Below, piece after piece: positions 1 through 55,039 of a DNA stretch of 64,000 nt. Source of the DNA: Solimonas fluminis (GTDB lineage: Bacteria; Pseudomonadota; Gammaproteobacteria; Nevskiales; Nevskiaceae); assembly GCF_002930645.1 (NCBI RefSeq), contig NZ_PSNW01000001.1, positions 674,600-738,599 on the forward strand. The letters run 5' to 3'. The notes under the pieces are model-generated. The model ran no database searches and had not been told where the DNA came from. It saw only the letters and a list, made by a program, of their open reading frames with translations. Both the position numbers and the translations under genes were made by a program. The stretch's first letter is position 1, and every line of letters begins with the position of its first letter.

Positions 1-1981
1 CGTGGCCCTGGTTGCCCTGGCTGTAGAGATGGGTGTTGTAGATCTTGCGGTTCTCGATGTCCTGCTGGTTCATGCGCAGGCCCTCGAAGCGAGGCAGGTT
101 CCAGAGCAGGCCGATCTGCTCGTACAGCAGATTGATGGCGTTCTGCGCCGTGGAGGGGCGCTCCTCCTCTCCCGGGCTGCAGACCCGGTAGGGGCTGGTG
201 CCGTCGTCGCCGCAGCGCAGCGCCTCGTACTTCCAGCCGAGCCTGGCGCTGTCGTAGGCCCGCTCGAAGTTCGTGTCGTAGCCCATCACCACCAGGCCCT
301 TCTGGTCCTCGCGTGCCGGCGTGGACACACGCCGCCAGATGTCCGGCCGCTCGCTGTCCGGGTCCAGCACGCCCCAGATGTTGGGGACCGAGGCATTGTG
401 CAGGTAGGGCGCCGCGGCCCAGGTTCCCCACAGCGGCGGGGCCAGCAGCACCGGCGTCTTGTTGTCCGTCTCGCCGTAGGCACCGCTGCCGCAGTAGAGG
501 AAGTTCTGCTTCTTGGTGGCCTCGGGGAAGTCGCCGTCGATGCTGCGCAGGCTCTGCATGGCGTCGGCATAGACCGGATCGGTGCGCACTACCGACATCG
601 GCACCACGTAGGCGGCCAGCCCGCCCAGCTCCGGCGTCTCCAGGTAGGCCGGGTCGTGGATGAAGCGCGGCGAGTAGGCGCCATGGCAGCTGGCGCAGGA
701 GCCGTTGCCCTCGGCCGGACGCGGTGCCGGGTTGTCCAGGCCGCGGCCCCACAGGTCCTTGGCGTGGAACAGGATGGCGCCGGCTTCGGCCAGCTTCGTA
801 TCGATCGCGCCCGGGTAGCGTGGCGGCGCCTGCGTCTCCGCCCAGACCTGGAAGGGTCCGGAATGCGCGTCGTTCCAGGCCAGCGCCTCGTCGTCACGGC
901 CGCTCAGGCTGGCTGCCAGGTCGTAGTACGCGGCCAGGTCGATGCGCGAAGAGTCGGTGGGCAGGATCGCGCCATGGAACTTCTGCGCGCGGTAGGCGAG
1001 GTTCCACCAGGGCGGGCTCTTGATGTTGCCGATGGCCTGGCTGAACAGGATCTTGGGATTCAGCAGCAGCTGCGGGTCACCGCGGCTGAACAGCACGAAG
1101 GCCAGCTGGAAGAAGTCGATGGCGCCGCTGCCGCGATTGGTCGAGATGGTGATCAGGTTGATGGCGCTGTTGAGCGAGAAGCCGCCGCTGGCCTGGCCCA
1201 GGTCGTATCCGCCCACCGCGAAATCGCCGATGCTGCCGGCGCCGGCCAGCTGCGGGCCGAGGTCCGCCCCGCCCTTGTCGCTGTCGATCTGGCCGTTGTG
1301 GCAGGCCACGCAGACCTTGGTGCCGATCTTGCCCGTCCAGGTACCATCGGCCTTGCGGATCTGCGTATAGGCCAGGGGCAACTGGCCGGAGCCGCCGTCG
1401 GTCTGGTTCGGATCCTCGCCCGGCAGCGGATACGGGTTGCGGTAGGGCGACAGCGGCGAGCCGTGGCGCTGCGCCACCAGTTCGTCGAAATTGTCCGGCC
1501 GGCCCGGCAGCCCCCAGACCTCCCAGAGCCGGTTGTAGGCTTCGGCCTCGACGCCGGCGGGGTCCTGCTGGCCGCCGGCGAAGCTCAGCGGCGTGCCGGG
1601 CTCGCCCTGCCCGTGCGCGACGAAGCGGCCGAGCTCCGCCTGCCGGCGCAGTTCCCCGCAGGTCTTCGGGCGCGCGACGGCGTTGCCGCAGTCGCGCCAG
1701 TACGCGTTGAAGGCCACGGCCTTGCCCTGGTTGACGCCAGGCACCAGCAGCTCGCGCGGGTCGCGCGGCAGTGCCGCGGCATCGTCCTTGTCCTTGCAGA
1801 AGTTCGCCCAGGCATTTCCCCCGCGGGCCCCGCCGAGCAGCGGGTACTGTTCCTGCGGGGTCTGCGTTTCGCCGCTGTTCTGCGGCACCGGCGCCACCGT
1901 CGTATCGCTGCGGCCGCAGCCCGACAGCAAGGCTGCCGACAGCAGCAAGCCGCAGCCCAGCTTTCCGATCATCGTCGTCAT
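1..1981 (-). CDS. RoxA-like dihaem c-type cytochrome lipoprotein (3' end cut by window edge)
   Basis: The reading frame runs off the left edge. By alignment with its upstream paralogue only about 20 C-terminal residues are missing. The N-terminus is a lipoprotein signal with lipobox LSGC (Cys22). Two haem c sites are visible: CVACH (224-228) and CASCH (429-433), the second followed by GAYSPR. The roughly 200-residue spacing of the motifs and the length fit the RoxA/RoxB rubber-oxygenase superfamily, which cleaves polyisoprene oxidatively. Substrate cannot be inferred here, and a MauG-like or electron-transfer role is possible. The start at 1981 is chosen because GGAG lies 10 nt upstream; an in-frame ATG at 1987 is the alternative. 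It follows the paralogue by about 20 nt, so they probably form one operon. Confidence 0.8.
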   Translation of the reverse strand, partial: MTTMIGKLGCGLLLSAALLSGCGRSDTTVAPVPQNSGETQTPQEQYPLLGGARGGNAWANFCKDKDDAAALPRDPRELLVPGVNQGKAVAFNAYWRDCGNAVARPKTCGELRRQAELGRFVAHGQGEPGTPLSFAGGQQDPAGVEAEAYNRLWEVWGLPGRPDNFDELVAQRHGSPLSPYRNPYPLPGEDPNQTDGGSGQLPLAYTQIRKADGTWTGKIGTKVCVACHNGQIDSDKGGADLGPQLAGAGSIGDFAVGGYDLGQASGGFSLNSAINLITISTNRGSGAIDFFQLAFVLFSRGDPQLLLNPKILFSQAIGNIKSPPWWNLAYRAQKFHGAILPTDSSRIDLAAYYDLAASLSGRDDEALAWNDAHSGPFQVWAETQAPPRYPGAIDTKLAEAGAILFHAKDLWGRGLDNPAPRPAEGNGSCASCHGAYSPRFIHDPAYLETPELGGLAAYVVPMSVVRTDPVYADAMQSLRSIDGDFPEATKKQNFLYCGSGAYGETDNKTPVLLAPPLWGTWAAAPYLHNASVPNIWGVLDPDSERPDIWRRVSTPAREDQKGLVVMGYDTNFERAYDSARLGWKYEALRCGDDGTSPYRVCSPGEEERPSTAQNAINLLYEQIGLLWNLPRFEGLRMNQQDIENRKIYNTHLYSQGNQGH

Positions 1982-2000
1982 GTCCATCTTGCTCCAGGGA

Positions 2001-4382
2001 CTACAGCGTTTTCAGGTACTCGATCAGCGCGCGGCGCTCTGTGTCGGTCAGCACCGCCGTGAAGTCGTGACCCTCGTTGCCCTGGCTGAAGAGATTGCTG
2101 TTGTAGATCTTGCGATCCTCGATCTGCTGCGGCGTGAACTGCAGCAGCGAGGTGACATTGCCGATGTTCCAGGCCGCCAGCAGGTTGCCGTAGAGCGCGT
2201 TGATCAATGCCCGCACCAGGGGATCCTCGTCCGGGTTCGCCGGATTGCAGTCGAGGAAGGGAACGGTGCCGGCGCCGCAGGCCATGACGTCGTACTTCCA
2301 GCCGAGCTTCGCGGCGTCGTAGGCACGACCGATATCCGTGTCGAAGCCCATCACCACCTTGCCGTCCTGGTCGGGACGCGGCGGCGTGGAGACCCGGCGC
2401 CACAGGCGCGGGCGCTCGGACGGCTTCAGCAGGGTCCAGGCATCGGGCACCGAGCCGTTGTGCAGGTACGGAGCAGTGGCCCAGACGCCGTACAGCGGCG
2501 GCGCGAGATAGCCGATCTCGCGGTCGTCGCCACGCGTGTCGGCGCGGGTCTGTGCTCCGCAATCCTTCTGCGGACCGGCGTCGGCCGTCTCGGGATAGCC
2601 GATGGAGGTGCGCGACAGGGCCTGCGACACACCCTCGTTGTCGGTCATGGCGCGGGCGAAGTCGGTGCGGATCACCGCCTTGGGCGCCACGTAGCTGGCG
2701 ACGCCTTCCAGCGCCGGGTCGGCGAGATAAGCCTTGTCATGCACGAAGCGCGGCGAATAGGCACCGTGGCAGCTGGCGCAGGAACCGTTGCCGCCGGCCG
2801 GACGCTGCGCGGGATTTTCCAGGCCCTCGGCCCAGAGGTTCTTGCTGTGGAACAGGATGGCGCCCTGCTCCGCTAGCGCCGTGTCGACCGGCAGCGGATA
2901 GGCCGGCGCCTTGCGCGCCAGCACCCAGTGGTCGGCATCCTGCGCATGCTCGCTGACGAACGCCGCCGAGTCACCGCCACCCAGCGGCGTGAAGAAGGCC
3001 AGGTCCACGCGTACCGCATCGGCCGGGAAGGAGCCGTTCCAGAACTTCAGCGGACGATGGCCCATGTTCCACCACGCCGGATTGTCGCCAGAGGCGTTGG
3101 ATCCCGAGCGCAGCGTGTCGAGCAGCGACAGGTCGGGCCGCACGCCGCCCAGAGCGGCGATGTTGAAGAAGGCCGCGTTGTTGGTGCCGCGCTGCGTGCT
3201 GAACAGCGCGAAGGCCGAGATGGCAGGCGCGCCGGTCAGGCCCAGGTCGCGGGCAATGACCGAGACGTCGCCGTTGGGATTGCCCGAGCCGTAGGCCAGG
3301 CCCAGTCCAGGGCCGTCCGCCGGCGTGCCGATCTGGCCACTGTGGCAGCCGTGGCAGTTCAGGCCGATGCGGCCGGTCCAGCGGCCGTCAGCCGTACGAG
3401 TCTGCGTGAGGCTGGCGGGCAACTGGCCGCTGCCGCCATCCACCGCCGGGTCGTTGGGGTCTTCGCCCGGCAGCGGATAGGGATTGCGCTCCGGCGTGCG
3501 CGGCAGGCCGAAACGCTCCGCCACCAGGTCGTCGAAGTTGTCGGGACGCTCGCTCAGGCCCCAGATGCGCCAGAGCTTGTTGTAGCCGTCGGCGGTGGTC
3601 GAGAACAGTCCGCCCTCGCCGGTGGCCGCGAAGAAGTTGCCCGCGCCGACCCGCCCCAGGCCCTCCATCAGGATCGCGCCGCGGTCATGGCTGGCGCGCA
3701 GTTCGCCGCAGGTCTTCGGGTGCGGGCGCTCGTTCACCTTCTCCGGCTCGGCGTGGCAGTCTTTCCACCAGGCGTTGTAGTAGACCGCCTTGCCGTCATT
3801 GAACCCGGGCTGCACCAGCGAGCGCGGGTCCGCGGGCAGTGCGGCCTCGTCGTCCTTGCCCTCGCAGAAGTCGAACCAGCGATGCCCGCCGCGGGAGCTT
3901 CCCAGCAGCGGCAGCAGTTCGCCCACGTCGATGCCGCCCCCGAGGCTGCAGGTCGAGGGATCCCCGAAGCACTTCAGCAGGATTTCCATGTTCCGGTACG
4001 GCGCGCTGTCCACGGGCCAAGGGGCGCCGCCGGTATGCGGCGTCTCCTGCCCGGAAGCCATCAGCAGGATGCGCGAGGTGGGGTTGTTGCCGCCCAGGCG
4101 CTCCCAGTTGGCCCGCAGATCCTGCATGTCCTGGGATTTGCCCGCGGACAGCATGAAGTCGCGGCCGTCCTCCACGTCGGCCACGCCGCCAGGGACATGA
4201 CAGCTGCGGCAAAAGTCGAGGTTGGGCTGCACGCGGCTGCCGAAGTGTTCGTCCAGGCTGCGCGCCCCGCCCTCGCCGCCGGCGCCGACGGGGCTGCTGC
4301 GACTGGGCGCGCAGGCGGACAGCAGCGCGGTACAAAGGACGCCTGCCAGCAGCAGGCCTGATCGGGATATGCCGTGGTTCAT
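2001..4382 (-). CDS. RoxA-like multihaem c-type cytochrome lipoprotein (three CXXCH motifs)
   Basis: This 793-residue protein is a paralogue of the downstream gene. The start at 4382 has GGAGGAG six nt upstream; a longer frame reaches into the operator and is rejected. Lipobox LSAC (Cys24) predicts a lipid-anchored periplasmic or outer-membrane protein. CHGCH (343-347) and CASCH (535-539) match the two sites of the paralogue. CRSCH (58-62) is an additional haem site in an N-terminal extension of roughly 130 residues that the paralogue lacks. The motif PYLHNGSVP near the C-terminus is shared by the pair. Family knowledge suggests oxidative cleavage or peroxidase-type chemistry; the extra haem could be an electron entry site (inference). 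It is divergent from a TetR gene. Confidence 0.82.
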   Translation of the reverse strand: MNHGISRSGLLLAGVLCTALLSACAPSRSSPVGAGGEGGARSLDEHFGSRVQPNLDFCRSCHVPGGVADVEDGRDFMLSAGKSQDMQDLRANWERLGGNNPTSRILLMASGQETPHTGGAPWPVDSAPYRNMEILLKCFGDPSTCSLGGGIDVGELLPLLGSSRGGHRWFDFCEGKDDEAALPADPRSLVQPGFNDGKAVYYNAWWKDCHAEPEKVNERPHPKTCGELRASHDRGAILMEGLGRVGAGNFFAATGEGGLFSTTADGYNKLWRIWGLSERPDNFDDLVAERFGLPRTPERNPYPLPGEDPNDPAVDGGSGQLPASLTQTRTADGRWTGRIGLNCHGCHSGQIGTPADGPGLGLAYGSGNPNGDVSVIARDLGLTGAPAISAFALFSTQRGTNNAAFFNIAALGGVRPDLSLLDTLRSGSNASGDNPAWWNMGHRPLKFWNGSFPADAVRVDLAFFTPLGGGDSAAFVSEHAQDADHWVLARKAPAYPLPVDTALAEQGAILFHSKNLWAEGLENPAQRPAGGNGSCASCHGAYSPRFVHDKAYLADPALEGVASYVAPKAVIRTDFARAMTDNEGVSQALSRTSIGYPETADAGPQKDCGAQTRADTRGDDREIGYLAPPLYGVWATAPYLHNGSVPDAWTLLKPSERPRLWRRVSTPPRPDQDGKVVMGFDTDIGRAYDAAKLGWKYDVMACGAGTVPFLDCNPANPDEDPLVRALINALYGNLLAAWNIGNVTSLLQFTPQQIEDRKIYNSNLFSQGNEGHDFTAVLTDTERRALIEYLKTL

Positions 4383-4419
4383 GCTGTCTCCTCCAACAGT
4401 CCATGACCTGGGTTTGTTA

Positions 4420-4458
4420 TGACTTTTGTCAATATATTCCAATATTGACATTTGTCAA
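4420..4458. promoter_or_regulatory. Twin TetR-type operator overlapping the divergent promoter
   Basis: Two 12-bp dyads of form TGAC-N4-GTCA occur at 4420-4431 (TGACTTTTGTCA) and 4446-4457 (TGACATTTGTCA), with centres 26 bp apart. A further perfect inverted repeat, TGTCAATAT/ATATTGACA, spans 4427-4450. On the minus strand TTGACA (4458-4453) and TATATT (4436-4431), 16 bp apart, form a near-consensus promoter for the cytochrome genes lying inside the dyads. The tract is AT-rich in a GC-rich genome. I infer binding by the divergent TetR protein. Confidence 0.7.
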
Positions 4459-4488
4459 TTAGATGAGCGGCCACTATGCTTCGCCCTC

Positions 4489-5148
4489 ATGAACGACGCC
4501 CTGGACCCCTCGGCCGTAGCGCGGCAGCCCACGCAGCGGCGCGCGAAGGACCGCTTCGACCGCATCCTGCAGGCGGCCGAGACGCTGCTGACCGAGCAGG
4601 GGCTCTCGGGCTTCTCGATCCCGGCCCTGGCCGAGCGCCTGGGCTACACGCGCGGCAGCGTCTACGCCTACTTCCCCACGCCCTACGCGATCCTCAACGA
4701 GCTGGTGGGGCGCTACCTGGTGGAACTGGAGGCGGTGTTCTTCTCCCGCGCCGAGGAGCTGCGCAACCTGGGCTGGCGCGACGGCACCGCCGCGGTGGTC
4801 GACCATGCGGTCGCCTTCCACAATGCCCACCCCGCGGCACGCCTGCTGATCCTGGGCGGTGCCGTCACCGACGACAGCTACCGCGCGCAGGAGCGGACCA
4901 ACCAGCGCCTGGGTGAACTGGGACGCATGGTCTGGTACCAGGGCGGCCTGCTGCCCGAAGGTCCGCCGGACCTGACGACCCTGGCCGCGGACATCGGCAC
5001 CGCCTGCTTCCGCCGCTCGTTCTTCGAGCACGGCGAGATCACGCCGGCCTACCGCGACGCCGCGGTGGCGGCGATGGCCGGCTTCCTGGGGCCCTACATG
5101 GAGGCGGCGGTGAAGCCGGCCGCCCGGGCGCGCCGCAAGGCCGGCTGA
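4489..5148 (+). CDS. TetR/AcrR family regulator of the cytochrome pair
   Basis: A 219-residue regulator. An N-terminal helix-turn-helix (about residues 20-65, with the motif GSVYAYFPTP typical of TetR recognition helices) is followed by an all-helical ligand/dimer domain. An in-frame TTG at 4426 would place the start inside the operator, so ATG 4489 is preferred. It is divergent from the two RoxA-like cytochrome genes with a 106-bp intergenic region that holds two dyads, so it most likely represses both itself and the cytochrome operon. The inducer is unknown. It ends just before the terminator of the RND operon, which converges on it. Confidence 0.85.
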   Translation: MNDALDPSAVARQPTQRRAKDRFDRILQAAETLLTEQGLSGFSIPALAERLGYTRGSVYAYFPTPYAILNELVGRYLVELEAVFFSRAEELRNLGWRDGTAAVVDHAVAFHNAHPAARLLILGGAVTDDSYRAQERTNQRLGELGRMVWYQGGLLPEGPPDLTTLAADIGTACFRRSFFEHGEITPAYRDAAVAAMAGFLGPYMEAAVKPAARARRKAG

Positions 5149-5212: not shown

Positions 5213-8200
5213 TCAGTGATTGAGCTGCGGCTGCGCCGCCGGCGCATGCGATTTCGACAGGTCGTGGCCCAGGTACAGGTACATGGCCGGCACCACGTAC
5301 AGCGTGAACAGCGTGCCGATCGACATGCCCGCGGCGATCACCAGGCCCATCGAGAAGCGGGCGGCGGTGCCGGGGCCCGAGGACAGCAGCAGCGGCACCA
5401 TGCCGATCACCAGGGCCGCGGTGGTCATCAGCACCGGGCGCAGTCGCACCGACGTCGCTTCCTCGATCGCCTCGCGCTTGTTCAGGCCCTGCTCCTGCAG
5501 CTTGTTGGCGAACTCCACGATCAGGATGCCGTGCTTGGAGATCACGCCGATCAGGGTGATCAGGCCGACCTGCGTGTAGATGTTCAGCGTCATGCCGGGC
5601 AAGGCCGTCAGCTGCATGCCGTTGGTAATGCCGAAGATGTTCAGCACCAGCAAGGCACCGCAGATGGCCATCGGCACCGTCACCAGGATCACCAGCGGGT
5701 CGCGGAAGGACTCGAACTGGGCCGCCAGCACCAGGTAGATGATGATCAACGCGAAGGCGAAGGTCACCAGCAGCGCCGAGCCTTCCGTCTTGAACTGGCG
5801 CGAAGGACCGGCGTAGTCGACCTGGAAGCCGGCCGGCATCACCTCGGCGGAGATGTCCTCCAGGATCTTCAGGGCCTCGCCCTGGGTCACGTCGGGACGC
5901 GGCACCGCGACGATGGTGTTGGAGTTGAGCTGCTGGGCATGTTCGATCGAGCGCGGCACGATGCGGGAGCTGATCTTCACCAGCGTCGAGATCGGGATCA
6001 GCTCGCCGTTGGAGGCGCGCGTGTAGTAGCCCTCGAGCTGCGCCGGGTTGAGGCGCTCGCCGCGTTCCACCTGCTGGATCACCTTGTAGGACCGGGCGTC
6101 GTAGGAGAAGCGGTTGACCTCGCCGCCGGCCAGCAGGGCCGACAGGTCGCCCGACAGCTGCGCCATGTCCACGCCCAGCAGCGCCGCCTTGTCGCGGTCG
6201 ATCTCGATCACCGCCTCGGGGCGGTCGACGCGCAGGCGCGGCGCGGCGTAGAAGAACTTCTTGGTCGCCATGGTACGCTGGATGATCTCGTCGCCGATGC
6301 GTGCCATGGTGATGGGGTCGGTGGTGGACTTGAGCACGAACTCCACCGGATAGCCCTGGCCCGGCGTCGGCAGCGGCGGCGGCTGGATGCCCGCCCAGCG
6401 GATGCCGCTGACCTTTTCCATGTCGGGCTGCAGTTCCGCCAGGATGTTCTTGGTGGAAGTCTGGCGCTCGGTCCAGGGCTTCATCACCATGCCCATGAAG
6501 GCCTGGTTGGTGTCGATCACGAAGGTGAAGATGTGATCCAGCTCCGGATGCTTCAGCGCGACCTTCTGCACCGCCGCGAAGTACTCGTCCATGTACTCCT
6601 GGGTAGCGTAGCCGTCGGTCTCGCTGATGGAGAAGGCGAAGCCCAGGTCCTCCTCCGGCGCCAGCTCGGCGGCCGTGGAACGGAACAGCGCGATGCAGGA
6701 CGCGAACATCAGCGCGCCGAACACCATGATCACCAGGCGCGTTTCCAGCGCGCTGTGCAGGCGCCGCTTGAAGGCGTTGCGCCACTGTTCGAACTTCGTG
6801 TCGAGCCAGGTCGCCAGGCGGTTCTCCTCGGCCCCCTCGCCATGGGTGGGCTTGAGGATACGTGCACACATCATCGGCGTGAGAGTCAGCGCGATGACGC
6901 CCGACACCAGTACGCTGCCCGCCAGCGTGAAGGCGAACTCCGTGAACAGCTTGCCGGTGATGCCGCCCAGGAAGGCGATCGGCGCGTACACCGCCATCAG
7001 CGTGATGGTCATGGAGATGACCGGGCCGACCAGCTCGCGCGCGCCCTTGATGGAGGCGTCGAAGGGCTTCATGCCCTCTTCGATGTGGCGGTGGATGTTC
7101 TCCATCACGATGATGGCGTCGTCCACCACCATGCCGATTGCCAGCACCATCGCCAGCAGCGTCAGCAGGTTGATGGTGAAGCCCATGATCAGCATGATGA
7201 ACAGGCCGCCCACCAGCGACAGCGGCACGGTGATCGCCGGGATCAGCGAGTTGCGCATCGACCCCAGGAACAGGAAGATCACCACGATGACGATCAGCAC
7301 GGCCTCGATCAGGGTCTTGACCACCTCGTTGATCGCTTCCTTGATGTAGATCGTCGAGTCGTAGCCGATCTCCGCCTTGAGGCCCTCCGGCAGCGCCTTG
7401 AGCATGGACGGCCACATGTCGTTGACCGCCTTGGTCACGTCGAGCACGTTGCCGTCAGGGCGGATCTTGATCGCCACGAACAGCGCCGGGTCGCCGTCCC
7501 AGCCGGCGCCGCCCTCATAGGTCTCGGAGCCGAGGATGACGTTGGCGACGTCGCCCAGGCGCACTACGGTATTGCCGTCGGACTTGACCACCAGCTGCCG
7601 GAATTCGTCGGTGGTGCGCAGGTCGGTCTGCGCCGAGAGGCCGATCTTGACGAAGTTGCCCTTGGTCTCGCCCACCGCCGACAGCACGTTCTGCTGGCGG
7701 ATGCGGGAGAAGACCTCCCCCGCGGTGAGGTTGTGCGCCGCCAGGCGGTCGGGCTTGAGCCAGATGCGCATGGCGTAGGTGCGCGCACCCTGCAGTTCGG
7801 CGCGCTCGATGCCCGGGATAGCGGCCAGCTGCGGCTCCACCACGCGGGTCAGGTAGTCGGTGATCTGGCTCTTGTCCAGCACCAGGGACGAATAGGTCAG
7901 GTACATCGCCGCGGTGCCGCCGCCCTCGGCCACCGTGATGATCGGGTCCTCGGAGCCCTCTGGCATCTGGCTGCGCAGTTTGGCGACCTTGGCCGAGATG
8001 TCGGTCATCGCCTCGGCCGGGCTCTTGTCCATGCGCAGGTTGGCGGTGATGGTGCTCAGGCCCTGCGCGCTGGTGGACGTCAGGAAGTCGATGCCGTCCG
8101 CCGTGGCGATCTCGCGCTCCAGCGGCGTGGTGATGAAGCCTTCCACCAGGGCCGGATCGGCACCCGGATAGGCCACCGTGACCAGCAGCTGCGCGTTCTG

Positions 8201-8320
8201 CAGGAAGGGGTACTCGCGCACGGTCAGGTTGAAGAAGGCGCGCACGCCCAGCAGCAGGATGACCAGGCTGATGACCGTCGCCAGGACCGGCCGCTTGATG
8301 AAGATGTCGGTGAAGTTCAT
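5213..8320 (-). CDS. RND multidrug efflux permease (HAE1/AcrB-MexF family)
   Basis: A 1035-residue inner-membrane proton-driven exporter, the usual length for AcrB-type pumps. The N-terminus (FTDIFIKRPVLATVISLVIL) is the first transmembrane helix. The proton-relay motif GMVVDDAIIVMENI, with the Asp-Asp pair of TM4, lies near residue 405, and the second half repeats the architecture. Start ATG 8320 is preferred over an in-frame GTG at 8329 because AGG sits 8 nt upstream. It is the last gene of the operon tetR-tolC-adaptor-pump, separated from the adaptor by about 200 bp that contain a long hairpin. Substrate is not predictable from sequence. Confidence 0.95.
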   Translation of the reverse strand: MNFTDIFIKRPVLATVISLVILLLGVRAFFNLTVREYPFLQNAQLLVTVAYPGADPALVEGFITTPLEREIATADGIDFLTSTSAQGLSTITANLRMDKSPAEAMTDISAKVAKLRSQMPEGSEDPIITVAEGGGTAAMYLTYSSLVLDKSQITDYLTRVVEPQLAAIPGIERAELQGARTYAMRIWLKPDRLAAHNLTAGEVFSRIRQQNVLSAVGETKGNFVKIGLSAQTDLRTTDEFRQLVVKSDGNTVVRLGDVANVILGSETYEGGAGWDGDPALFVAIKIRPDGNVLDVTKAVNDMWPSMLKALPEGLKAEIGYDSTIYIKEAINEVVKTLIEAVLIVIVVIFLFLGSMRNSLIPAITVPLSLVGGLFIMLIMGFTINLLTLLAMVLAIGMVVDDAIIVMENIHRHIEEGMKPFDASIKGARELVGPVISMTITLMAVYAPIAFLGGITGKLFTEFAFTLAGSVLVSGVIALTLTPMMCARILKPTHGEGAEENRLATWLDTKFEQWRNAFKRRLHSALETRLVIMVFGALMFASCIALFRSTAAELAPEEDLGFAFSISETDGYATQEYMDEYFAAVQKVALKHPELDHIFTFVIDTNQAFMGMVMKPWTERQTSTKNILAELQPDMEKVSGIRWAGIQPPPLPTPGQGYPVEFVLKSTTDPITMARIGDEIIQRTMATKKFFYAAPRLRVDRPEAVIEIDRDKAALLGVDMAQLSGDLSALLAGGEVNRFSYDARSYKVIQQVERGERLNPAQLEGYYTRASNGELIPISTLVKISSRIVPRSIEHAQQLNSNTIVAVPRPDVTQGEALKILEDISAEVMPAGFQVDYAGPSRQFKTEGSALLVTFAFALIIIYLVLAAQFESFRDPLVILVTVPMAICGALLVLNIFGITNGMQLTALPGMTLNIYTQVGLITLIGVISKHGILIVEFANKLQEQGLNKREAIEEATSVRLRPVLMTTAALVIGMVPLLLSSGPGTAARFSMGLVIAAGMSIGTLFTLYVVPAMYLYLGHDLSKSHAPAAQPQLNH

Positions 8321-8476
8321 GTGTCGCACCTGCTTCTGGGTTCGCCGGCGTTCGGGGGAACGGCAGCTACAGCTTGTACTGCTCGTACTGCTTTGCAGCC
8401 TCTACAGGCCGGGCCTGTCACGGTCATCGCCAGCCACGGCAAGACACTCCCCGCCCGGTCATCCGGGCCAGGCCCG

Positions 8477-8524
8477 AAACCGCCGGGCGGATGCCCAGCG
8501 GGCATCCGCCGGCTCCGGCGGTTT
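8477..8524 (-). other. Long two-part hairpin between adaptor and pump genes
   Basis: An 11-bp perfect stem GGCGGATGCCC/GGGCATCCGCC (8486-8496, 8500-8510) is nested inside a 9-bp stem AAACCGCCG/CGGCGGTTT (8477-8485, 8516-8524). The outer stem reaches the last base of the adaptor stop codon. There is no T-run on either strand, so it is not a standard terminator. It could stabilise the upstream mRNA or reduce pump expression (inference). The rest of 8330-8476 shows nothing I can name. Confidence 0.7.
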
Positions 8525-9693
8525 CAGCCCTCCGCCGGCTTCGGCGTCAGGGTGTTCTTCAGCTCGCCTTCCTGGGTGATGATCACCGGCTGCTGGTTGC
8601 GCAGCTTCAGCAGGCCGGAGGTCGCCACCTGTTCGCCTTCCTTGATGCCGTCGATCACGGCCACGAAGTCGCCGCGGGCGTCTCCGACCTTGATGAAGCG
8701 CTGCGCCACCTCGAAGTCGACCTGCGGCGCCGGCGGCATGCCCGGCATGGGCTCCGGCTTGGGCGCATTGGGATCGACCTTCTTCTTCTGCACCACGAAA
8801 ACCGAGGTGCCGTAGGAGTCGTAGTTGATCGCGGTACGCGGGATCGCCAGGATCTCGCGCGAACCCGGCAGTTCCAGGCGCACGCGGCCGAACTGGCCCG
8901 CGCGCAACTGGTGGTCCGGGTTCGGCAGGCGGGCGCGCAGCTTGAAGTTGCGGGTGGCCTCGTCGATCTTCGGCTCCACCGCCAGGATCTGGCCGGCGAA
9001 CTCCAGCTCCGGATAGGCCTCGACCCTGACCGCCACCTTGAAGCCCGGCTTCACCGAGGCGATGTACTGCTCCGGCAGGGTCAGGTCGATGTCGATCGGG
9101 TCCAGCGACTGCAGGTTGACGATCGGCGAGCCCGGATTGATGAACTGGCCGACGTTGACGCGGCGGATGCCCAGTTCGCCGGCGAAGGGGGCACGGATTT
9201 CCTTCTGCGCCAGCTTGGCGCCCTGCGCCTCGACGGCGGCCTTGGCGGCATTGGCCTCGCTGACCGCGGCGTCGTAGTCGGACTTGGAGATCGCCTCGAG
9301 CTTGTAGAGCTTCTCGCGGCGGGCGCGGTTGAGCTCGGCCAGTTCGGCCTGGGCCTGCAGGCGCTTGTATTCGCCGCGCTCGTTGGCGGCGTCCAGCGTC
9401 ACCAGGCGGTCGCCCTTCTGCACGCGCTGGCCCGACTCGAAGTGGATCGCGGTGACGATGCCGCCGGCCTCGGTGGTGACGTCGGTGCCGTTGACCGGCA
9501 CGAAGCTGCCGATGGCCTCGAGACGGTTGTCCCAGCTCATCTTCTTCACCGCGCCGGCCGTGATCGTCGCCGCCGGGACCGGCATGGCGTCAACGTACTT
9601 GTTCATCATTACGTTGCCCATGTACTTCATGCCGAACACACCGCCGAAGACGACGGTGACCAGCACCAGCATGATGATCATTCTCTTGGTCAT
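8524..9693 (-). CDS. RND efflux periplasmic adaptor (membrane-fusion protein)
   Basis: A 389-residue HlyD/AcrA-type adaptor. A single N-terminal membrane anchor (about residues 5-25) is followed by the lipoyl half-motif (GGIVTAIHFESGQRVQKGD), a coiled-coil hairpin of about 60 residues, the second lipoyl half (IRAPFAGELGIRRVNVGQF) and the beta-barrel domain. It bridges the inner-membrane pump to the TolC-type channel. AGGA lies 8 nt before ATG 9693. It is separated by 27 bp from the upstream tolC-like gene, consistent with one transcript. Confidence 0.95.
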   Translation of the reverse strand: MTKRMIIMLVLVTVVFGGVFGMKYMGNVMMNKYVDAMPVPAATITAGAVKKMSWDNRLEAIGSFVPVNGTDVTTEAGGIVTAIHFESGQRVQKGDRLVTLDAANERGEYKRLQAQAELAELNRARREKLYKLEAISKSDYDAAVSEANAAKAAVEAQGAKLAQKEIRAPFAGELGIRRVNVGQFINPGSPIVNLQSLDPIDIDLTLPEQYIASVKPGFKVAVRVEAYPELEFAGQILAVEPKIDEATRNFKLRARLPNPDHQLRAGQFGRVRLELPGSREILAIPRTAINYDSYGTSVFVVQKKKVDPNAPKPEPMPGMPPAPQVDFEVAQRFIKVGDARGDFVAVIDGIKEGEQVATSGLLKLRNQQPVIITQEGELKNTLTPKPAEG

Positions 9694-11061: not shown

Positions 11062-11767
11062 CGAACACCTCGTTGCAAATTCTCTTGATCAGCGCGTCCA
11101 GGGCCGCGCCGTCGCTGACGTCCACCAGCGGATGCCAGCCGTAGCCATTGAGCATGACCTGCGTATGTCGGCACATCAGCCGGTAAGGGTCGCGCACGTT
11201 GAAATCCTCAAGCACGCCCTCGGCATGGACCAGGTTGTGCGTCCCCGCCGACAGCGCCCAAAGCCCGGTGCAGATCTCCTCGGCCGACATGTCTCGGAGC
11301 TCCAGCTCACCGGCCGCGACCGCGTCATTGACGATGCCCACCACCACGTCGGCGATCGGGTCGCTGGCGGCGAGCATGGCCTGCCGCCGCTCGGGGGATG
11401 CCGCCTTCCACACCACCTCGGTGAAGACGTACTGCCCGAGCCGGAAGAAATCCGGGTTGCGGCGCACGAAGATCATGTCGGCCACCGCGATCGCGACCAT
11501 GCGGTCGCGCGGGCTCGCCTTCCATTGCGTCGCGCGCTGGAACATCGATACGTGCTTTTCGGTATCCACCGCGGCCAGGGCCAGCAGCAGGTCTTCCTTG
11601 GAGGCGAAATGCTTGTAGAGGGTTCCGACCGCGTACTCGCTCTTTTCGGCGATGCGCGACATCTGCAGGTTCAGCAGCCCCTCGTCGCGGATCAGGTCGC
11701 GCGCACAGTCGAGGAAGACCTTTTCCCGGTCCTCGAACTCACGCTGGCGACGTTCCTTGGTACCCAT
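11042..11767 (-). CDS. TetR/AcrR family regulator heading the efflux operon
   Basis: A 241-residue TetR-type repressor with an N-terminal HTH (about residues 15-65; GTLYKHFASKEDLL is the recognition-helix region) and a C-terminal ligand domain. It is the first gene of the efflux operon and its 3' end overlaps the tolC-like start, so regulator and transporter are co-transcribed. This arrangement favours autorepression that is relieved by the pump substrate. A dyad at 11810-11826, 43 bp upstream of the start, is the obvious operator candidate. The first 20 residues are rich in charged residues (KERRQREFEDREK). Confidence 0.88.
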   Translation of the reverse strand: MGTKERRQREFEDREKVFLDCARDLIRDEGLLNLQMSRIAEKSEYAVGTLYKHFASKEDLLLALAAVDTEKHVSMFQRATQWKASPRDRMVAIAVADMIFVRRNPDFFRLGQYVFTEVVWKAASPERRQAMLAASDPIADVVVGIVNDAVAAGELELRDMSAEEICTGLWALSAGTHNLVHAEGVLEDFNVRDPYRLMCRHTQVMLNGYGWHPLVDVSDGAALDALIKRICNEVFDDLCSE

Positions 11768-52867: not shown

Positions 52868-55039
52868 ATGAACCACACTGCTGCAACGGGCGGTCGTGCC
52901 CGCAGCGCGGGACTGATCGCGGGCCTGCTGAGCTGCGGACAGGCGGTGGCGCTCGACTATGAATGGCGCGACATCGACATCTCGCTGAACGGCCGCGCCA
53001 GCATCGGCGCCATGTGGCGCATGGAAGAGCGCGACAACCGCCTGGTCGGCAAGCTCAACGTGCCCGGCCAGCAGGGCCTCTGCTCGCGGGACGACTGCAT
53101 CGACCTGGGCGGGGACTCCGAGCCCAACCAGCGGCTGGTGGACGCGCAGGGCGCCTACATCGGCCATGCCTTCGACGACGGCAACCTCAACTACGACCAG
53201 TACGACATGACCTCGGCGGTCGCCCGGCTCAAGGCAGACACGGTCCTGACCTGGGGCGAGACGCTGCTGAAGCTCTCGGGCGTGGCCTTCTTCGACGCCG
53301 TGAACGTCGATGCCGACGACTACCACCCGGACACCACGCACCAGCCTCGGCATACCAAACGCTCGCAGCGGGTGGAGCGCGACCTCGGCACCGACATCGA
53401 CCTGCTGCAGCTCTACGTGGCGCGGAGCTTCGAGCTCGAGAACCACACCGTCAACGTCTCGGTCGGCCAGCAGGTGCTGCGCTGGGGCGAGAGCAACCTG
53501 GTCGCGCTCAACAGCCTGGCCGAGATCAATCCGCCGGACGAGAACATCTTCTGGATGCCCGGCGCGCAATTGCCCGACGCCTTCCAGGCCGTGCCGCTGG
53601 CGATCCTCTCGGCCGACCTGACCGACACCGTCGACGCCGAGTTGTTCTACCAGTTCGGCTGGAGGCCCGCCAAGGCCGCCGCCGCGGGCGGCTTCATGTC
53701 GCTGTTCGAGAGCGCCAACGGCCGCGACCACTTCATCCTGACGCAGGGACAGACCCCGGAGGACCCCGACGGCGAGCATCACATCTCGGGCCTGGCCACG
53801 CTGCTGACCGACAGTTCCGCCACGGCGCGCATGATCGGCAGCAACGATCCCGAGGACGGCGGCCAGTTCGGCCTGCGGCTGAACTGGCGGGTGGACGAAC
53901 TCCTGGGCGGCACGCAGTTCAGCTTCTACGCCGCCAACTACCACAGCCGCGTCCCTTACCTGAGCATGATCGCCGGCGACGAGTCCTGCATCCGCGACTC
54001 CACCACCATCGTCGGCGCCGTGCTCGATTGTCCGCTGCTGCTCAGCGGCTCGCTCGACCTGGCCGATCTGCTCTACCACTACCTGGGGGTCGACCTCAGC
54101 GGCATTCCCCCGGTCGACATCGACCTCAGCAACGGCAACGATGCCCTGCCCTTCGACACGCCGAAGGGCTTCCTGGACTACCCCGAGGACATCCAGATGT
54201 ACGGCATCAGCTTCAACACCACGGTCGGCAGCTGGTCCCTGTCGGGCGAGTACGCCTACCGCCCGAACCTGCCGCTGCAGGTGGCCCTGACCGACGTGAT
54301 CATGACGGCCGCGCAGCCTTTGTTCCCGCGCCAGGACATCGTGGTGGGGCTGCCGCAGCTCGCCACCATCCCCGGCGCCCGGACCTTCATCCCGGACTTC
54401 CTCAGCGTCTACCGCGGCTACGACAACAGCATCCCCGAGCGCTCGATCCAGGCCGGGCAGGTCATCCGTGGCTACGAGCGCATGAAGGTCGGCCAGTTCA
54501 ACCTCTCCGCGATCAAGGCGCTGTCGCCCTCGGACCTGCCCTTCCCGCTGGGCACCGACCAGATCCTGGTGCTGCTGGAATCCGGCATCACCCATGTCCT
54601 GGACATGCCGGACAGGGAACAGCTCCAGTTCGAGGGCTTCATCCTGCACAAGAACACGCATGCCAGCCCCGGCGCCGACGGCACCGGCTCGGGCGGCGTG
54701 CCCGGCCTGCGCCTGACGCCGACCCAGCAGACCGAGGGCTTCGCGGACGATTTCGCCTGGGGATACCGCATCAGCGTGATGATGGAGTACAACGATGTCC
54801 TCGGCCAGCTCAACATGAAGCCCTGGCTGATCTGGGGGCATGACGTGCAGGGCATCTCGCCGCTGCCGAAGTCGGGCTACCAGGGCTTTGCGGAAGGCCG
54901 CACATTCTTCCAGATCGGCTCCGAGTTCTACTTCCTCAAGGACTGGTCCGGGGGACTGTTCTACCGGGGCTCCAGCGGCAGCAACGAGACCCTGCGCGAC
55001 CGCGACAGCCTGACGGCCTACGTCGCCTATACGTTCTAG
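52868..55039 (+). CDS. DUF1302 outer-membrane protein
   Basis: A 723-residue protein of the DUF1302 family, a large porin-like beta-barrel group of proteobacteria often encoded with DUF1329 and hydrophobic-compound degradation genes. A signal sequence (about 1-28) is followed by strands such as RASIGAMWRMEERDNRLVG and ends in DSLTAYVAYTF with the C-terminal Phe recognised by the BAM machinery. AGGAGG lies nine nt before the ATG. DUF1329 is not adjacent. Follows the CMD gene. Confidence 0.93.
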   Translation: MNHTAATGGRARSAGLIAGLLSCGQAVALDYEWRDIDISLNGRASIGAMWRMEERDNRLVGKLNVPGQQGLCSRDDCIDLGGDSEPNQRLVDAQGAYIGHAFDDGNLNYDQYDMTSAVARLKADTVLTWGETLLKLSGVAFFDAVNVDADDYHPDTTHQPRHTKRSQRVERDLGTDIDLLQLYVARSFELENHTVNVSVGQQVLRWGESNLVALNSLAEINPPDENIFWMPGAQLPDAFQAVPLAILSADLTDTVDAELFYQFGWRPAKAAAAGGFMSLFESANGRDHFILTQGQTPEDPDGEHHISGLATLLTDSSATARMIGSNDPEDGGQFGLRLNWRVDELLGGTQFSFYAANYHSRVPYLSMIAGDESCIRDSTTIVGAVLDCPLLLSGSLDLADLLYHYLGVDLSGIPPVDIDLSNGNDALPFDTPKGFLDYPEDIQMYGISFNTTVGSWSLSGEYAYRPNLPLQVALTDVIMTAAQPLFPRQDIVVGLPQLATIPGARTFIPDFLSVYRGYDNSIPERSIQAGQVIRGYERMKVGQFNLSAIKALSPSDLPFPLGTDQILVLLESGITHVLDMPDREQLQFEGFILHKNTHASPGADGTGSGGVPGLRLTPTQQTEGFADDFAWGYRISVMMEYNDVLGQLNMKPWLIWGHDVQGISPLPKSGYQGFAEGRTFFQIGSEFYFLKDWSGGLFYRGSSGSNETLRDRDSLTAYVAYTF

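Follow-up and report, generated by a model that had tools for sequence, protein, structure and literature searches.

A putative TetR-controlled operon of RoxC-like cytochrome lipoproteins in Solimonas fluminis, possibly directed at polyisoprene

The window analysed here is a stretch of 64,000 nucleotides of the Solimonas fluminis genome (assembly GCF_002930645.1, contig NZ_PSNW01000001.1, positions 674,600-738,599, forward strand). It begins with two adjoining genes, W1 and W2, coding for multihaem cytochrome lipoproteins related to the rubber-cleaving oxygenases RoxA and RoxB, and a divergent gene coding for a TetR-family regulator, TetR_W (Table 1). The reading that we favour, with moderate confidence, is that these genes form a TetR-repressed operon attacking polyisoprene (natural rubber, a similar cis-polyisoprenoid, or oligo-isoprenoids cut from it) at the outer surface of the cell. 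We infer from sequence comparison its repression, substrate, catalysis and localisation, as well as the roles of W2 and of the downstream genes. The substrate had been left open by an earlier, sequence-only reading of the window; polyisoprene is now suggested by the recurrence of the operator at the locus of a latex clearing protein gene (lcp) and by a predicted roxB gene within the corresponding operon of a sister species.

Table 1. Coordinates of the main features in the window
Feature	Position	Strand	Basis
W1, trihaem cytochrome lipoprotein, 793 residues from the lipoprotein Met	2001..4382	-	sequence, profile and fold matches
W2, dihaem cytochrome lipoprotein, 681 residues in full; the last 64 bp of the gene fall beyond the window edge	1..1981 (cut by the window)	-	sequence, profile and fold matches
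TetR_W, TetR-family regulator divergent from W1; recognition helix TRGSVYAYF	4489..5148	+	PF00440, 43.2 bits
Operator box 1 (ATTGACAAATGTCAAT on the minus strand, a perfect palindrome), lying over the predicted -35	4444..4459		sequence
Operator box 2 (ATTGACAAAAGTCATA on the minus strand), spaced 26 bp from box 1 and overlapping the predicted -10	4418..4433		sequence
Predicted sigma-70 promoter of W1-W2: TTGACA (4458-4453), 16 bp, TATATT (4436-4431)	4431..4458	-	11 of 12 matches

The two cytochromes

W1 and W2 are separated by 19 bp and their products are 48% identical. Each carries a lipobox (LSAC and LSGC, called by motif) and has an acidic isoelectric point (5.22 and 5.26). The sequence-only reading had described a pair of multihaem lipoproteins with CXXCH motifs about 200 residues apart and a divergent TetR gene, and all of these were recovered: the two motifs of W2 (residues 224 and 429) are 205 residues apart, and the last two of W1 (residues 343 and 535) are 192 apart. 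It had overlooked the motif CRSCH at residue 58, which adds an N-terminal haem site to W1 and makes the protein trihaem. The likely axial ligands of W1 are H347, H539, H772 and the MauG-motif residue H641. The third haem is likely bound by H62 and perhaps by H116, located 54 residues further on, a spacing that matches the H44/H98 pair given for RoxC of Fontimonas (PMC10837239). An H(S/T)GG motif is present in 63 of the 70 trihaem Rox proteins.

Both proteins match the RoxA-like family PF21419 above the Pfam cut-off (72.2 bits for W1, 55.5 for W2), and the only PDB sequence match of either is RoxA (4b2n; E 2.8e-115 and 9.7e-89). RoxA alone was retrieved at E <0.001 by Foldseek with both models. 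In the VIA comparison the W1 model aligned to RoxA with a Z-score of 32.1 over 569 residues (root-mean-square deviation 3.1), and MauG and the peroxidase YhjA gave 10 to 11; besides these families none exceeded Z 10 for W1, which we do not take as evidence of absence. The mean predicted local distance difference test score (pLDDT) is 77.3 for the W1 model, and the W2 model is poor (66.1). Best hits to ordinary dihaem peroxidases or electron carriers lacking a RoxA fold had been named by the earlier reading as an outcome that would refute it. This was not observed; the general di-haem peroxidase model CytoC_perox gave 86.0 and 86.5 bits for W1 and W2 against a cut-off of 150.

The same reading had placed the pair with RoxA and RoxB, and here it was right about the relationship in the broad sense but not about RoxA. 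With the NCBIfam RoxA model, W1 and W2 reach 468.2 and 429.4 bits, far from the cut-off of 1000 and from the 1234.2 to 1285.5 bits of three RoxA-labelled proteins. The RoxB model (NF050034, cut-off 900) gives 879.8 and 969.9 bits, compared with 1038.2 to 1123.7 for five predicted RoxBs, and the RoxC model (NF051462, cut-off 900) gives 870.5 and 605.3. W1 is below all three cut-offs, and W2 is above that of RoxB. In a careful, unrooted tree built with the pocket columns masked (58 of 101 Rox proteins), W1 and its two orthologues belong to a clade of 11 rows (96/89) whose sister group is the five predicted RoxBs, the 16 rows together being recovered at 100/97. RoxA is remote in this tree, and RoxB nests among trihaem lipoproteins. 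W1 and W2 resemble RoxC lipoproteins rather than RoxA, and the tree sets W1 close to RoxB.

The haem pocket separates the two proteins. With numbering anchored on 4b2n (H195, H394, F301, W302, A316, F317, in agreement with the placement published in PMC10837239 and PMC6311187), the residues at positions 301, 302, 316 and 317 form a four-letter code that follows clades across the 101 proteins, as seen in a 95-row tree. RoxA has FWAF, predicted RoxB has FVVF (FAVF in one case), and the large RoxC type has FFAA, mostly with CFxCH at the catalytic haem; W2 and its relatives have FHAA, and further codes include FFSF, FQIF, FQGF and FWAI. W1 (F447/W448/A462/F463) and its two orthologues carry FWAF. 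The RoxA membership that this code could suggest for W1 is ruled out by the family score and the tree position. Since W1 is sister to RoxB and RoxA remains remote with the pocket columns masked, the simplest reading is that Trp302 of W1 was gained independently of RoxA, bearing in mind that the tree is unrooted and that the FWAI and LW groups have a Trp as well. A further candidate difference from RoxA, Asn407 of W1 as a polar departure at position 255, was dropped, because the HMMER alignment places it at position 256 with a gap.

In RoxA, according to PMC6797691, the O2 bound to the haem is held in place by Phe317 and Phe301; replacing them lowers activity, and changes of Phe317 reduce or abolish it. 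As W1 retains Phe301, Phe317 and Trp302, it is predicted to be an oxygenase. W2 (F335/H336/A350/A351) keeps only Phe301 and is predicted not to be a RoxA-type dioxygenase. The RoxB label that NCBIfam gives to W2 is doubtful, as it lacks Phe317 and the tree places it among FHAA lipoproteins, which are mostly trihaem.

Operator boxes and promoter

The predicted promoter of W1-W2 is overlapped by two boxes of the type TTGACAnnnGTCA, and their 26-bp arrangement over the -35 and -10 elements is identical in two related genomes, G001 and G002. These belong to a comparison of four related genomes of the genus (the own genome G000, G001, G002, which is 93% complete, and G003), which are not independent samples. 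Two promoter-like sites are present in 301 bp, against a mean of 0.1 in shuffled sequences, the second lying on the plus strand and facing TetR_W. This twin-box promoter, together with the lipobox in both proteins, strengthens the earlier suggestion of an inducible surface system. It recurs before W1, before a third rox gene of G001 and before the DUF1302 gene, where a box is found in all three genomes with the W operon (G000, G001 and G002); in G000 that box overlaps the first possible start of the open reading frame, which probably begins further downstream.

An exact genome-wide search for ATTGACANNNGTCA in the four genomes returned 15 rows, corresponding to 13 distinct sites once palindromes read twice were merged. 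Nine of these lie in W operons, two at the lcp locus (G000:C5:102576 and G001:C1:3102789) and two elsewhere, and a control search with the reversed pattern gave a single match. The match at G000:C23:258279, which by eye seems to sit just past a gene end, is taken as chance; a further match is at G003:C17:61489. In the tree of the TetR proteins, 12 of 20 inner branches are open, and because of this weak resolution we compared the proteins by identities and recognition helices. The helix TRGS(V/I)Y(A/S)YF pairs with TTGACAnnnGTCA boxes, and the TetRs of a rox cluster on contig C23 of the own genome have IYKFF-type helices and GTTAC/GTAAC-like boxes.

Similar boxes were also seen away from W operons. 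A perfect ATTGACAAATGTCAAT palindrome lies upstream of a redoxin-like open reading frame (by eye) and two rox genes at L132:2729, in genome G051, where no TetR gene was recognised; an adjoining frame of 215 residues was considered as a TetR and does not align as one. A variant box, TTGACTTAAGTCA, is located upstream of an FQIF-type rox gene in three genomes (L012:6109, L107:4684 and L101:5420), with no TetR gene seen alongside.

Operon content and the lcp locus

Downstream of W2 lie genes coding for an AraC-type helix-turn-helix protein (146 residues), a DUF1302 protein, a DUF1329 protein, an alpha/beta hydrolase and an acyl-CoA dehydrogenase. The order is the same in G001, with the third rox gene inserted after W2. 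G002 has W1, a predicted roxB, W2, and the AraC, DUF1302, hydrolase and dehydrogenase genes. The predicted RoxB of G002 scores 1123.7 bits and has a Sec-like signal and no lipobox (by eye). In G003 the genes in between are gone: a deletion scar (L158, around position 11700) fuses what is left of the acyl-CoA dehydrogenase gene to the TetR gene, which has lost its first codons; this genome has no lcp and no RoxB code among its three rox genes. For the acyl-CoA dehydrogenase, the best match in the whole genome is next to roxA in Povalibacter and in Microbulbifer, whereas in Sphingomonas about 8 kb separate the two.

The lcp locus (L154:3195-8104 on contig C5 of G000; L156 in G001) contains a Tat-type latex clearing protein gene, a convergent gene for an AraC-type regulator, a gene for an AMP-binding enzyme and a TetR paralogue 69% identical to TetR_W. 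The lcp product matches PDB 5o1l, 'Rubber oxygenase', at 455 bits, an entry that we take to be Lcp of Streptomyces K30. Its identity rests on this match, as no NCBIfam family was found for it at E 1e-15. The lcp gene of G001 is an intact frame of 408 residues. The own genome has four MPAB_Lcp matches, of which the one on C5 was compared with the PDB. Strong lcp matches occur in two of the 58 family genomes, G000 and G001, both of which have the W operon, with one weak match in G019, and in none of the 14 named-locus genomes, where one weak match of 93 bits was found. The box at this locus (L154:5575-5590 in G000) overlaps the predicted -10 of the AraC-type gene, whose promoter has 9 or 10 of 12 matches.

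Proposed role and points against it

If the operon acts on polyisoprene, W1 would be a membrane-anchored dioxygenase that cleaves C=C bonds with O2 bound to the haem at H347. F447 and F463 would hold this O2, and W448 would stand, like Trp302 of RoxA, between the catalytic haem and the second one. Its extra N-terminal haem domain could serve as an electron entry or as a spacer. W2 may carry out a second oxidative step on the products, and the AraC-type protein, DUF1302, DUF1329, the hydrolase and the acyl-CoA dehydrogenase would be concerned with import of the fragments and the start of beta-oxidation. TetR_W would repress the operon by way of the twin boxes at -35 and -10. Where a strain bears lcp, the box and the TetR paralogue before the AraC-type gene could draw lcp into the same response indirectly.

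Several observations weigh against this reading. The lcp-locus box precedes the AraC-type gene, which is convergent with lcp, and lies about 1.1 kb past the lcp stop rather than in the lcp promoter, so that any effect on lcp would be indirect. Moreover, as the lcp locus has its own TetR paralogue, the shared boxes may reflect TetR paralogy or duplication and not one regulon. A metagenome-assembled genome (MAG) of Salinisphaerales, G063, combines the boxes with a TetR_W-like gene (57%) and a W1-like gene that has Leu at position 317, and it has no lcp; the switch is thus not tied to lcp. Genomes lacking lcp can also hold large Rox arrays, with nine genes over the cut-off in each of G063 and G070. 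A weight matrix trained on the exact sites gave box-like hits of 20 bits or more in six other loci over 1.96 Mb, three with rox genes (L132, L136 and L139) and three unrelated. DUF1329 is absent from the W operon of G002, and this, with the position of the lcp-locus box, slightly weakens the polyisoprene reading. The link to the acyl-CoA dehydrogenase is weak, since a 68% identical paralogue exists elsewhere in the own genome; its value as a rubber marker is further reduced in Nannocystis, where its best match is not by roxA. The W1 model is weak (pLDDT 48-56) at residues 391-430, which include part of the pocket, and the pocket geometry taken from it is not firm. Finally, two expressed RoxCs showed no rubber activity, and Table 1 of PMC10837239 gives them Phe at 302, Ala at 317 and a CFQCH haem site. 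They match the FFAA clade, by residue code only, and since this code is the opposite of that of W1, the negative tests say little about W1.

Alternative functions

Oxygenation of unsaturated fatty acids or other lipids, with W1, which keeps Trp302, making a hydroperoxide that W2, which has lost it, rearranges, is the strongest of the alternatives, although we consider it unlikely. The model for it is the FadCcp pair PA2077/PA2078 of Pseudomonas aeruginosa, an oleate 10S-dioxygenase and a 7,10-diol synthase, which we compared by description only: these are also tandem large di-haem oxygenases, both modelled on RoxA, with the inter-haem Trp kept in PA2077 and replaced by Ser in PA2078, the same asymmetry as between W1 and W2 (PMC4496055). 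The authors of RoxC propose oxidation of unsaturated fatty acids (PMC10837239), and DUF1302/DUF1329, the hydrolase and the acyl-CoA dehydrogenase would suit lipids equally well. However, the Pseudomonas pair is reported to act on fatty acids in the periplasm and to have Gln at position 301 (PMC4496055), whereas Phe301 is kept in both W1 and W2, and Phe317 in W1. The RoxB model also gives W1 and W2 much higher scores (880 and 970) than CytoC_perox does, and the recurrence of the operator at the lcp locus, with the predicted roxB in the sister operon, argues for polyisoprene rather than lipids.

It is somewhat less likely still that the same chemistry is directed at a smaller isoprenoid (squalene, a carotenoid, a terpenoid or a sterol side chain), lcp having been recruited later under a copied TetR. 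This would account for the TetR_W-like gene, boxes and W1-like gene of G063 in the absence of lcp, and for the 3 to 16 Rox-type genes per genus genome, which exceed the apparent need for one polymer; but roxB in G002 and lcp in G000 and G001 represent families that cleave polyisoprene, and G003, which has lost the operon, has neither. Very unlikely is a role of W1 and W2 as outer-membrane peroxidases or electron-transfer cytochromes devoid of oxygenase activity, since the core fold common to MauG and YhjA and the lack of Phe317 and Trp302 in W2 are outweighed by the far better match to RoxA and by the two distal Phe kept in W1.

Other Rox-type genes and neighbouring genes

The own genome has ten Rox-type genes over the Pfam cut-off, located in five places and including W1 and W2, and the counts for G000, G001, G002 and G003 are 10, 16, 9 and 3, respectively. 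The eight further genes of the own genome lie on contigs C23, C12, C1 and C29 (L010-L013); at two of these places three of them are clustered together with TetR genes, the C23 cluster having different boxes (GTTAC/GTAAC-like). Two adjoining large frames with CXXCH motifs at L014:4333-9099 have only a RoxA-like match below the cut-off, the one of 799 residues having no Pfam family, and could be a diol-synthase-like pair. Dense arrays are found in Spongiibacter pelagi (nine Rox genes in 54 kb, G070:C23:304870-358848) and in the Salinisphaerales MAG (six in 24 kb, G063:C1:410294-434690), neither genome having a strong lcp match. In Spongiibacter thalassae (L038:7201-12126), an open frame of 1642 residues has three CXXCH motifs and is only 38% identical to W1.

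Beside TetR_W, and convergent with it, lies a gene similar to RND efflux permeases (window 5213-8329; below the NCBIfam model cut-offs), followed by a gene for a protein of 389 residues (8524-9693) that looks by eye like an RND membrane fusion partner. This pair is kept beside the TetR gene in G002 and G003 and was not seen in the stretch fetched from G001. DUF1302 genes are numerous in the own assembly (23 over the cut-off in a 4.67-Mb genome), and one of these lies in the window at 52898-55036.

Methods

Rox proteins were collected from the own assembly, the family genomes and the named loci at a BLAST score of at least 280, giving 109 proteins, or 101 after removal of eight duplicates. Six fragments or odd rows were left out of the first tree (95 rows), and the 58 rows of the careful tree were chosen by us. 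Loci were fetched for the PF21419 matches of the family except low-scoring ones and a few on short contigs, and at the fetched loci no W1 orthologue was seen outside the genus. AlphaFold models of W1 and W2 were built from 31-row alignments, and the full length of W2 was taken from the assembly (L009:7936-9981).

Relation to known systems and significance

RoxB (RoxB/LatA) is the labelled Rox clade nearest to W1, with which it shares the core family and Phe317, and W2 exceeds the score cut-off of its model. However, the five predicted RoxBs are dihaem proteins with FVVF or FAVF, and the one of G002 shows by eye a Sec-like signal and no lipobox, whereas W1 is trihaem, has Trp302 and stays below the cut-off, W2 lacks Phe317, and both have a lipobox. 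The resemblance to RoxC (Prakash et al. 2024) lies in the lipoprotein nature and acidic isoelectric point of both proteins and, in W1 only, in the N-terminal third haem. Both nevertheless score below the RoxC cut-off, and RoxCs are said to miss some of Phe317 and Trp302 (PMC10837239), a description that fits W2, which has neither, but not W1, which has both. RoxA of Steroidobacter cummioxidans 35Y (4b2n) shares the fold, haem spacing and MauG motif, and its F301/W302/A316/F317 set with W1, but it is dihaem and secreted, is far from W1 in the tree, and its model is matched at less than half the cut-off. As to regulation, TetR/AcrR-type regulators of actinomycetes (LcpR and others) bind palindromes upstream of lcp (PMC7413915); these palindromes are by eye unlike the TTGACAnnnGTCA boxes, and the regulators are described as acting on lcp and not on cytochrome lipoproteins.

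RoxC lipoproteins and trihaem forms have already been published, and RoxC is given as the largest of the three Rox clusters, with 243 of 458 sequences (PMC10837239). As far as the literature listings show, what is new is the RoxA-coded W1 beside RoxB, the twin-box operon, and the connection with roxB and with the locus of lcp: among the matches listed, no such operon or operator appears in titles or abstract openings, and a 2019 paper on Lcp of Solimonas fluminis may discuss rox genes.

The locus gives RoxC-type proteins a specific, testable link through a W1 with the catalytic Phe, an operator that recurs at the lcp locus, and a sister species with a predicted roxB in its operon. It also provides a regulator and an operator that are candidates for the control of rubber genes in Gram-negative bacteria. 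More tentatively, and with a probability that we put clearly below even, W1 may represent a new, third class of rubber oxygenase: a trihaem protein anchored to the cell and related to RoxB, in which the Phe/Trp active site of RoxA has evolved anew. It would work at the surface alongside a secreted endo-cleaver, which would be Lcp in two of the Solimonas genomes and RoxB in another, and W2 would be dedicated to a second step on the keto-aldehydes released. If this were true, the RoxC group would split into functional types readable from the four-letter pocket code.

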